Source: Thermoplasmata archaeon
GTDB taxonomy: Archaea; Thermoplasmatota; Thermoplasmata; Lutacidiplasmatales; UBA184
DNA length: 41,010 nt
NCBI GenBank assembly: GCA_021828085.1
Contig: JAKATE010000002.1
Span: 1 to 41,010, forward strand
Reading direction: 5' to 3'
The notes under the pieces are model-generated. The model was not told the origin of the DNA. It saw only the letters and a program-made list of their open reading frames with translations, and searched no databases. Within the stretch, counting starts at the first letter, position 1. Every line of letters begins with the position of its first letter. The position numbers and the translations under genes were made by a program. This document shows, piece after piece, positions 30,255 through 34,524 of the stretch.

Positions 30255-30331
30255 GCGGACTCCCTATGCTCCGGGCCCCCCGCGGGCACGGAGGATCCCC
30301 CTGTTCCCATGGGCCCGTAGCTCAGGCCGGT

Positions 30332-30362
30332 AGGTCGGAGGAGCGATCCTCCGGCCCGGTGA
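30332..30362 (+). other. tRNA intron 1 (D-loop, position 20/21), 31 nt
   Basis: Near-strict BHB: central 4-bp helix GCCG/CGGU, 3-nt bulges GTA and GAA, 10-bp intron helix capped by GCGA. Confidence 0.88.
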
Positions 30363-30401
30363 AGAGCACCCGGCTTTTAACCGGATGGTCCGGGGTTCGA
30401 A

Positions 30402-30442
30402 TGGCCGCAAGCCTCCCGAGGGGGAGCGAGGCGGCCCGAAGC
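30402..30442 (+). other. tRNA intron 2 (T-loop, position 59/60), 41 nt
   Basis: Strict BHB: T-stem CGGGG/CCCCG, central helix TTCG/CGAA, 3-nt bulges AAT and GCT, intron helix GGCCGC/GCGGCC. Confidence 0.92.
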
Positions 30443-30489
30443 TCCCCGCGGGCCCGTCTGCTGCGGCCCGCCGGGAAAGGGGGGACTCC

Positions 30490-30846
30490 GTGAGCCCCGC
30501 GAAGAGCCCCCCCGCGCGGCGTCGCGCGGCGAAGCCCAAGGCGGCCCCTCCGGAGCCGGCCAAGCCCTCCGGCCCCACCGCGCGGCACCAGCTGGTGCCG
30601 GCCCACGAGCTCCTGAGCGCCGAGGAGGGGGCCCGGGTGCTCGCCGACCTGGGGGTCCCGGTCGAGCGGCTCCCCAAGATCCTCCTCGACGATGCCGGTC
30701 TTCGCACCGATCCGAAGTTCTCCGAGCACGTGGAGAAGGACGGGCTCACGGGCCTCGTCGGCCGCCTCGTGCGCATCCATCGTCCCAGCCCTACCGCCGG
30801 CAGCTCGGTGGCCTACCGGGTCATCGTGGCCAGCGCGGAGGAATGA
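30490..30846 (+). CDS. rpoH: DNA-directed RNA polymerase subunit H with N-terminal extension
   Basis: GTG start; RHQLVPAHELLSAEEGARVLADLGVPVERLPKILLDD...GRLVRIHRPSPTAGSSVAYRVIV; extra ~30-aa Lys/Arg/Pro/Ala-rich N-terminus. Confidence 0.9.
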   Translation: MSPAKSPPARRRAAKPKAAPPEPAKPSGPTARHQLVPAHELLSAEEGARVLADLGVPVERLPKILLDDAGLRTDPKFSEHVEKDGLTGLVGRLVRIHRPSPTAGSSVAYRVIVASAEE

Positions 30847-30852
30847 AGGTCC

Positions 30853-33800
30853 ATGAGAGAGATCGTCGACGCTTTCTTCCGCGAGCGCTCCATCGTGAAC
30901 CACCACCTCGCCAGCTTCAACGACTTCTTGCCCTCGGACGACAACCGCAACTCGCGCATGCAGCGCATCGTCGACGAGGCGCGGGTGAGCGAGGACTCCT
31001 CCGAGCGGGGGATCATCCGCCTGGACGTCCAGAAGACCAAGAGCTCCATCTTCGTGCGCGTCGGGCGCCGGCGCGACAAGAACGGCCAGGTCGACCCCCA
31101 CGAGCCGGGGACCATCAGCGTCGGGAGCCCCTTCGTGAAGGAGGCGGTGGGGAGCAAGCCCTCGGTGACGCCCATGGAGGCGCGCCTGAGGAACCTGACC
31201 TACCTCGCCCCCATCGAGCTCACCATCACCGTGGTGGAGAACGGCGTCGAGCGGGCCCCCGAGACCGTGCACATCGGCGACATCCCCGTGATGGTGAAGA
31301 GCCGGTTGTGCAGCCTGCACCGGGCCAACATCGAGAAGGCGAGCCAGTTCACCCTCTCCCCCGAGGAGTACCGGGCGAAGCTCGTGGAGTACGGGGAGGA
31401 CCCGCTGGACCCCGGCGGCTACTTCATCATCGGCGGCACCGAGCGGGTCATCATCTCCCTGGAGGACCTCGCCCCCAACCGGATCTTCGCCGAGTTCAAC
31501 GAGCGCTACGGCACCCCCGTGGAGAGCGCCAAGGTCTTCTCCCAGCGCGGCGGCTATCGGAGCCTCACGGTGGTGGAGAAGAAGAAGGACGGGATCCTGC
31601 AGGTCTCGGTCCCCTCGGCGAGCGGACAGATCCCCCTGGTCGTCCTGATGAAGGCGCTGGGGATGAAGAACGACGAGGAGATCTACCAGGCCGTCCTCGG
31701 CGAGCTCCTCCCGCTCAACGAGGCCTTCGTGGAGACCATGAAGCACCTCCTCAACGTGAACCTGGAGGAGTGCACGAGCAAGAAGACCTACCCTCCGGAG
31801 GGGATCCTCACCACGGAGGACGCCCTGCTCTACCTGGAGAAGAAGTTCGCCACGGGCCAGGCCAAGGAGTACCGGCAGCGCAAGGTCGACGGGATCCTCG
31901 ACCACTCGCTCCTTCCGCACCTGGGCGACACCGCCCAGGACCGCCTGAAGAAGGCCCTCTACCTGGGCCGGATCGCCCGGACGGTCCTCGAGCTCTACCT
32001 CGGCCAGCGCGGCGAGGATGACAAGGACCACTACGCGAACAAGCGCCTGAAGCTCGCCGGGGACCTCATGGAGGACCTTTTCCGGGTGGCCTTCACCCTC
32101 CTCCTGAAGGACCTGAAGTACCAGCTGGAGCGCTCCTTCACGCGCAAGAAGGACCTTCGGATCTCCTCGGCCATCCGGCCGGACCTGCTCACGCAGAGGC
32201 TCGTCCACGCCCTCGCCACCGGTAACTGGGTCGGAGGACGGGCCGGGGTGAGCCAGCTGCTCGACCGGACGAGCCACATGTCCACCATCTCCCACCTGCG
32301 CCGGGTGACGAGCCCGCTCACCCGGAGCCAGCCGCACTTCGAGGCGCGCGACCTGCACCCGACGCAGTTCGGGCGGCTCTGCCCGAACGAGACCCCCGAG
32401 GGGCAGAACTGCGGGCTCGTGAAGAACTACGCCCTCGCCGTGGACGTCAGCGAGGGGGCCGACGAGGAGGAGGTGGCCCTCCTCCTGCGCGACCTCAACA
32501 CCCGCGAGATCGGGCCGGAGGTCTTCCAGGAGGCGCCCAGCGGCAAGGGACGCCGCGCGGCCCGGGTCTTCGTCAACGGCAACCTGGTCGGTCTCCACTC
32601 GAACCCCGAGGAGCTCGTCCGCGAGCTGCGCGAGCGGCGCCGGAGCGGCACGCTCTCGCCCACCCTGGGGGACCGAATCTACGAGATCAACACCCGCTAC
32701 GACGCCGAGATGAACGAGGTCATCGTCAACTGCGACAGCGGTCGGCTGCGCCGCCCGCTCCTGGTGGTGCGCCAGGCCGCCCCCCGGGTGAGCCGGGAGG
32801 ACCTCGACGAGCTCTCCCGGGGGACGCTCTCCTTCGCCGACCTCATCCGGGGCGGCAAGGTGGAGTGGGTCGACGCCGAGGAGGAGGAGGATTCCCTCGT
32901 GGCCGTGGCCCCGTACGTCATCCCCGAACGCTGCCCGAAGTGCCACCGCTCGATCTCGCGGGGCGATCAGCGCTGGACGAACGTCGGGGACCGGGCCCCG
33001 GAGGCGAAGCTCTCCTGCCTGCGCTGCGGGGAGGACTACTCGGTCCCGCTCTCGCTCGGGAAGGATCACACCCATCTCGAGATCGACCCCAACCTGATGC
33101 TGGGGGTCTGCACGGGCCTCATCCCGTACCCGGAGCACAACTCCACCCCTCGCAACACCATGGGCTCGGGGATGGCCAAGCAGTCCCTGGGGGTGGAGTC
33201 GGTGAACTACCGGCGCCGCCCGGACACCCGAGGGCACCTGCTGCACTATCCCCAGGCCCCGCTGCTGCGCACCCAGACCATGCGCTACGTGCACTTCACC
33301 GAGAGGCCGGCCGGGCAGAACTTCGTCGTGGCCGTCATCTCCTACGAGGGGTACAACATGCAGGATGCGCTCATCCTGAACCGCTCGGCGGTGGACCGGG
33401 GGCTCGGGCGCTCCTCGTTCTTCAGGACCTACCGCTCGGAGGAGCGCAAGTACCCGGGAGGACAGGAGGACCGCTTCGAGATCCCCCGGCCCGACGTCGC
33501 TGGGGCGCGCGTCGACACCGCCTACCGGAGCCTGGGGGAGGATGGGCTCATCTTCCCCGAGATGCAGGTCGCCGAGGGGGACGTGCTCATCGGCAAGACC
33601 TCCCCCCCGCGCTTCCTGGAGGAGAAGACCGACCTGCTCACCCCCCAGAAGCGCCGGGAGACCTCCGTCACGGTCCGGGCCGGGGAGAGCGGCTGGGTCG
33701 ACTCCGTGGTCCTCACCGAGGGGGAGAACATCTCCAAGCTGGTCAAGGTCAAGGTGCGCAACGAGCGCATCCCCGAGCTGGGAGACAAGTTCGCCTCGCG

Positions 33801-34524
33801 CCACGGGCAGAAGGGGGTGGTGGGGCTCGTGGTCGCCCAGGAGGACATGCCCTTCAACCGGCACGGCATCTGTCCGGACCTCATCATCAACCCCCACGCC
33901 ATCCCCTCCCGGATGACGGTGGCCCACGTCCTCGAGATGCTCGGGGGCAAGGTGGGCTCGCTGGAGGGCCGGTTCATCGATGGGACCGCCTTCTCCGGGG
34001 AGCGGGAGGAGGCGCTGCGGGAGTCCCTCAAGGACCTCGGCCTCGCCCCCTCGGGGCGGGAGATCCTCTACGACGGCCGGACCGGCCGGCGGATGGAGGC
34101 GGAGATCTTCATGGGCGTGATCTACTACCAGAAGCTCCACCACATGGTGGCCGGGAAGCTCCACATGCGCTCCCGCGGCCCCGTGCAGATCCTCACCCGG
34201 CAGCCCACCGAGGGGCGGAGCCGGCAGGGGGGTCTTAGGTTCGGAGAGATGGAGCGCGACACGCTCATCGGGCACGGGGTGGCCATGGTCATCAAGGACC
34301 GGCTGCTCGACCAGTCCGACGGGACCACGCAGTACGTCTGCGGCAACCCGGCCTGCGGGCACATCGCCATCCCCGACCATCGGGCCGGGACGCTGCGCTG
34401 CCCGACGTGCGGGAACACCTCGTCCATCTACCAGGTGGAGATGAGCTACTCGTTCAAGCTCCTGCTGGACGAGCTCATGAGCCTCGGCGTGGTCATGCGG
34501 CTCAACCTCGAGGACATGAAGTAG
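30853..34524 (+). CDS. rpoB: DNA-directed RNA polymerase subunit B (unsplit)
   Basis: 1223 aa; [74 protein letters not shown]-terminal Cys4 zinc motif. Confidence 0.98.

Follow-up and report, generated by a model that had tools for sequence, protein, structure and literature searches.

Non-canonical tRNA introns are known in archaea mainly from the Crenarchaeota and Nanoarchaeota, and positions 20/21 and 59/60 are both on the published list of their locations (PMC4090602). They have been linked to splicing endonucleases (EndAs) of broad specificity and are described as recent additions (PMC4033280; PMC4090602; PMC6379350). According to reviews, canonical BHB motifs are the only ones that alpha'2 enzymes accept (PMC4033280; PMC4090602), the enzymes of A. 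fulgidus and T. acidophilum being listed as narrow in specificity (PMC6379350), and the intron-bearing tRNA genes of euryarchaea have just one BHB intron each, canonically placed (PMC4090602). Korarchaeum, whose enzyme has a special loop, has been named as the only archaeon in which an alpha2 enzyme occurs together with non-canonical introns, and M. kandleri and Methanothermobacter appear in the same review as archaea with multiple introns (PMC4033280). The EndA of M. kandleri, a euryarchaeal enzyme, has slight activity on a relaxed BHB (PMC6379350). Homodimeric enzymes can cut BHL-like motifs (PMC8707768), and the alpha'2 EndA of A. fulgidus cuts BHL at 37/38 in full-length pre-tRNA (PMC6379350). 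Intron-rich tRNA sets, with more than 90% of tRNA genes interrupted, are found in the Asgard lineages Atabeyarchaeia and Freyarchaeia (PMC11291895). For the Thermoplasmatota, no description of non-canonical introns was found among the papers covered by the literature search.

The gene described here lies in a window of 41,010 nt (the whole stretch of DNA analysed), and all coordinates below are window positions on the + strand. It encodes tRNA-Lys(UUU), spans 30311–30456 and contains two introns. Exon 1 (30311–30331) comprises positions 1–20, with the 5′ strand of the acceptor stem, T8 and A9, the 5′ strand of the D-stem and A14–U20. Exon 2 (30363–30401) carries positions 21–59 and the anticodon UUU, and exon 3 (30443–30456) positions 60–73, with CCA not encoded. 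The D-loop is interrupted at 20/21 by an intron of 31 nt (30332–30362), supported by sequence, fold, covariation and comparison with relatives, and the T-loop at 59/60 by an intron of 41 nt (30402–30442). Both insertions had been noted in the initial annotation, which placed one intron at 20/21 and a second outside the anticodon loop of the same gene. Because the two introns interrupt it, the intact gene has no match by ARAGORN or Rfam cmscan. Only after removal of both introns does ARAGORN read the correct 74-nt tRNA-Lys(ttt), in which the D-loop is the canonical AGGCCGGTA. A covariance model matches 30311–30456 at 125.6 bits, the window being one of its 36 training rows.

Downstream lie rpoH (Rpb5; 30490–30846, predicted start codon; PF01191, E = 3.7e-15), a neighbour conserved with the tRNA gene, and an undivided rpoB (30853–34524; PF00562 and six further Rpb2 domains), which was used to place the organism. 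Its RpoB is 93% identical to that of Thermoplasmata MAG TL1-5.bin109 and 85% identical to that of Ca. Lutacidiplasma silvani. A crenarchaeal origin of the window was considered and is rejected by this placement. The resemblance to Thermoproteales tRNA genes pointed out in the initial annotation thus does not extend to kinship, the RpoB being that of a member of the Thermoplasmata; it reflects the same kind of splicing. Neither the crenarchaeal host nor the (alpha-beta)2 EndA of a crenarchaeal-type tRNA gene is found here.

In the predicted precursor, the exon strand GCCG (30326–30329; positions 16, 17, 17a and 18) pairs with the intron strand CGGU (30357–30360) in a central helix of four base pairs, one of them G-U. 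The predicted splice sites lie in a 5′ bulge, GU^A (30330–30332), and a 3′ bulge, GA^A (30361–30363), and the intron folds into a hairpin (30333–30356) with a 10-bp stem (30333–30342/30347–30356) and a GCGA loop (30343–30346). Helix, bulges, stem, loop and the GCTC/GAGC D-stem all occupy the positions first claimed for them, and cutting after the second nucleotide of each bulge leaves the canonical D-arm that had been foreseen, within a 74-nt product. The AG departure reported on the 5′ side is real as well: A14-G15 (30324–30325) and the 3′ bulge form a 2x3 internal loop. The register of the 5′ bulge is identical, and the architecture of the 3′ bulge shared, in 51 distinct intron-bearing genes, in all of which A14-G15 face the 3′ bulge. 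The 20/21 intron therefore departs from the strict hBHBh′ motif, and it has the features of a bulge-helix-loop, namely a 3-nt bulge and an internal loop with a 4-bp helix between them (definition: PMC8707768). A strict BHB obtained through another register of the D-loop helix was tried and rejected, as no register frees A14-G15 from facing the 3′ bulge. The suggestion of strict BHB substrates outside the anticodon loop thus holds for the 59/60 intron (UUCG/CGAA, bulges AA^U and GC^U), whose bulges sit directly on the T-stem, and fails for the 20/21 intron, which is bulge-helix-loop-like through A14-G15 in every relative recovered.

Folded in isolation, the D-arm adopts the structure described with an energy of −29.1 kcal/mol (z = −4.6), which none of 200 shuffles equalled; slipping the register by one pair gives a fold of the same energy. 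Hairpins of the bulge-helix-loop type arise 0–4 times (mean 1.4) per 41-kb strand in Markov-generated sequence, so that the hairpin alone is not significant; it is not counted as evidence, and the case for the D-loop intron rests on comparison. Cuts moved by +1 or +2 on both sides yield an identical mature RNA. Since shifts of 0 to 2 nt leave the product unchanged, the exact bonds given here are those predicted from the motif.

In all, 54 records of the gene were recovered, representing 52 distinct genes at the same place beside rpoB, and removal of the predicted introns leaves exactly 74 nt in every one of them. Orthologues naturally without introns occupy the same place upstream of rpoH-rpoB in other families, so the synteny is shared by genes with and without introns. 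Six of these intronless orthologues, each 74 nt long, are identical to the window's spliced tRNA at 60–64 of 74 positions. The gene also occurs naturally in D-only and T-only forms, and these variants of presence and absence fix the intron boundaries, up to the shift of 0 to 2 nt. Both introns are present in MAGs of the Methanomassiliicoccaceae (L046, L067). From family to family the exons show almost no variation, and the intron bodies are not alignable between distant families. The D-loop intron is exactly 31 nt long in every gene of loci L011–L040 and L063 despite wide variation in sequence; the T-loop intron differs in this respect, its length in relatives lying between 19 and 42 nt, and some relatives (L032, L071) lack it.

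The four exon positions 16, 17, 17a and 18 pair with the four intron nucleotides that immediately precede the NN^A bulge, in exon/intron combinations that include CTAG/CTAG, GTAG/CTAC, GTCG/CGAC, GCAG/CTGC, CCCG/CGGG, CCAG/CTGG and GCCG/CGGT. The exon strand is nearly always CTAG outside family f1, and within f1 it drifts jointly with the intron strand. Both sides have changed at three of the four pairs of this central helix, and 96.5% of its cells in the alignments are paired; all four pairs are formed here and in 42 of the 51 distinct genes, with the outermost pair mismatched in nine. In the intron stem, all six base pairs adjoining the splice sites have changed on both sides among relatives. 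Pairing over the whole structure reaches 94.7%, against 83.3% after shuffling, a test inflated by related sequences, and at most 57% after sliding, where a structure drawn from the window's gene by itself favours the unslid register; in the D-arm alone 94.1% is paired, against 76.8% after shuffling and no more than 46% after sliding. The observed pairing lies above that of every shuffle and every slid register. Changes on both sides at three pairs of the central helix are the firmest part of this evidence. The central helix exists in the precursor only, and its conservation is therefore evidence for splicing. That the insert should instead stay in place, either as a stable extension of the D-arm or within a tRNA-Lys gene that is a pseudogene, is extremely improbable: no other UUU gene was found in the genome, the exons of this one hardly vary across families, the helix that covaries is one that precedes splicing, and the variants that have lost the intron restore exactly the 74-nt tRNA.

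Among 296 genomes of the phylum that were sampled, 45 match an exact pattern for the D-loop intron (reversed-pattern control, 0). These include all 14 sampled members of f1, both of f2, all of f6, f8, f9 and f10, and members of f17, f18, f27, f31, f34 and f38; in family f14, a longer D-loop intron was recognised by eye. In four families (f14, f27, f31 and f38), tRNA-Lys(UUU) carries both a D-loop intron and a canonical 37/38 intron (L182, L183, L184, L186, L187, L190). Within the window's own family, each of 21 genomes has one strong D-arm match, always of 50 nt, corresponding to the 31-nt intron. Other tRNAs of these 21 genomes gave weak matches only (E of 0.26 or worse) with the same D-arm model, which is derived from tRNA-Lys and could miss other D-loop introns.

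On a quick RpoB tree of 43 rows, with the root not inferred, the distribution requires at least seven state changes. This number would suit independent gains in different families at a favoured site, as would the failure of intron bodies to align between distant families and the self-complementarity of the usual D-loop tetranucleotide, CTAG, from which a suitable intron 3′ end is easily acquired. Such gains, which are compatible with the same splicing mechanism, are nevertheless rather unlikely, given that all families share the same gene, the same bond and the same frame of bulges and helix, and that the Lys-derived model finds no comparable match in other tRNAs of the 21 genomes. The presence of the D-loop intron on several deep branches of the tree also speaks against them and is the reason for preferring one early gain followed by repeated loss. 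The intron was thus probably inherited with the gene, ancestral to much of the phylum and lost repeatedly.

The window's genome is a MAG (G000; 2.10 Mb in 263 contigs, 92.8% complete, 6.2% contaminated), and its tRNAs were read from separate stretches. A MAG of this completeness could lack a further UUU gene or a further EndA subunit; the other tRNA-Lys found is CUU. Screening for introns outside 37/38, as the initial annotation had proposed, revealed T-loop 59/60 introns of 30–34 nt in at least eight further isoacceptors, Asn-GUU, Gly-UCC, Arg-UCU, Ala-GGC, Ser-GCU, Ser-GGA, Gln-CUG and Asp-GUC (L132, L145, L159–L163, L166–L168). Canonical 37/38 introns, judged by eye, occur in about four isoacceptors. 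T-loop introns are therefore common in this genome, and the D-loop intron is the rare one. In the other isoacceptors, an A at position 57 usually goes with a mismatch in the fourth central pair at the 59/60 intron. The tRNA set was found to lack His, Trp, Val-UAC, Gly-GCC, two Pro and two Thr tRNAs, which may be hidden by introns or absent from the MAG. The set also contains duplicate Tyr, Cys, Ser-GGA and Ala-GGC genes, which may reflect the 6% contamination.

One EndA gene was found in the genome. Its product of 374 aa matches PF02778 twice and PF01974 twice (two N-domains and two C-domains), with the Tyr/His/Lys catalytic triad conserved in the C-terminal repeat. Foldseek searches with the AlphaFold model (mean pLDDT 90.4) recovered the M. 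kandleri subunit fusion 5x89 (E = 8.9e-32) and the alpha'2 enzymes of A. fulgidus (E = 3.5e-24) and T. acidophilum (E = 2.2e-16). The fold match to the epsilon2 enzyme of ARMAN-2 (4fz2) is weak (TM 0.57 vs 0.73–0.82), and the protein consists of two full repeats; both observations speak against the three-unit alphaN-alpha-betaC protomer of the epsilon2 type, whose ARMAN-2-specific loop (ASL) carries Lys161. The subunit type, singled out at the outset as worth identifying, is thus indicated by domains, triad and the A. fulgidus fold to be the fused two-repeat, alpha'2-like one, presumably homodimeric. Ten columns of the crenarchaea-specific loop (CSL), including Lys44 (A. pernix numbering), are gaps in this EndA, and in 23 EndAs of 23 further families nine or ten of them are gapped and Lys44 is gone.

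The initial annotation had suggested a broad-specificity endonuclease, and the type of enzyme, a single fused EndA without CSL or Lys44, lends this no support. Splicing by a broad-specificity system would call for a missed EndA subunit or for a CSL/ASL-like element elsewhere in the enzyme. The relaxed 3′ site is the kind that reviews tie to broad-specificity enzymes (PMC6379350), and the nearest solved relative in sequence and fold, the EndA of M. kandleri, is rated 'constrained broad' without having a CSL. With one EndA gene only, and with the CSL and Lys44 columns gapped here and across the 23 further families, such a system is distinctly unlikely. Short open frames for EndA were observed in families f4 (286 aa), f5 (318 aa), f13 (260 aa) and f24 (164 aa), all of which lack the D-loop intron (L225, L230, L231, L232); a co-loss is possible.

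As judged from sequence, the segment 30332–30362 is very probably a protein-spliced intron of the BHB family in tRNA-Lys, cut by the fused EndA, joined by RtcB, whose gene is present in the genome, and inherited with the gene. In the precursor, a helix between D-loop nucleotides 16–18 and the intron's 3′ end would separate a 3-nt bulge at the 5′ site from a 2x3 loop at the 3′ site, in which A14-G15 face NN^A21. The fused and presumably homodimeric EndA would cut after the second nucleotide on both sides, and RtcB would join the exon ends; the same EndA would release the T-loop 59/60 intron from its strict BHB. The precursor helices are predicted to occupy nucleotides of the elbow, G18 being held by the D-loop intron and U54–G57 by the T-loop intron, so that the elbow between D-loop and T-loop should form only after both cuts. 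A further and tentative possibility, on balance doubtful, is that alpha'2-like EndAs of the Thermoplasmatota without CSL or ASL have, from an early stage of the phylum, relied on a third and so far undescribed route to cut introns that are relaxed and lie at non-canonical positions. Were this true, non-canonical tRNA introns would be ancient in the phylum, rather than a late consequence of broad-specificity enzymes.

Across many families of a single phylum, a relaxed D-loop intron has been kept alongside a loop-less enzyme, in a tRNA that is apparently essential. Genes with such introns can be missed by ARAGORN and Rfam, as in this window, and because they escape detection, tRNA losses or MAG incompleteness deduced from missing tRNAs in the phylum may be wrong.

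The D-loop intron of tRNA-Lys(UUU) belongs to a known type, and what is unexpected about it is the lineage and the splicing enzyme with which it occurs. It resembles the non-canonical introns of other archaea in the positions used, the 4-bp exon-intron helix and the occurrence of several introns per gene. It differs from them in its Thermoplasmatota host, in its persistence in one orthologous gene across many families and in being accompanied by a loop-less alpha'2-like EndA where they have (alpha-beta)2 or epsilon2 enzymes. Atabeyarchaeia and Freyarchaeia likewise have non-canonical, multiple introns outside the Crenarchaeota, but belong to another phylum. As in relaxed, BHL-like BHB motifs, one 3-nt bulge and one internal loop surround a 4-bp helix; unlike in the usual relaxed BHB, the internal loop is set by A14-G15 of the tRNA itself, and it recurs in every homologue because these are fixed tRNA positions. 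The EndA shares two fused repeats and the triad in the C-terminal repeat with the alpha'2 enzymes of A. fulgidus, in which the CSL is absent as well, and T. acidophilum, although its 374 aa compare with 305 and 289 aa, respectively. Its best match in both sequence and fold, the (alpha-beta)2 EndA of M. kandleri (5x89), is also without a CSL, but naturally consists of two subunits, whereas the present enzyme is fused, and has a C-terminal Trp (..YVMWR) at a position that is not Trp here (..YYHLER). The intron fits the work in which homodimeric and alpha'2 EndAs cut BHL motifs (PMC8707768; PMC6379350), while the deep conservation of non-canonical introns alongside an alpha'2-like enzyme conflicts with reviews that assign single canonical introns to the euryarchaea.
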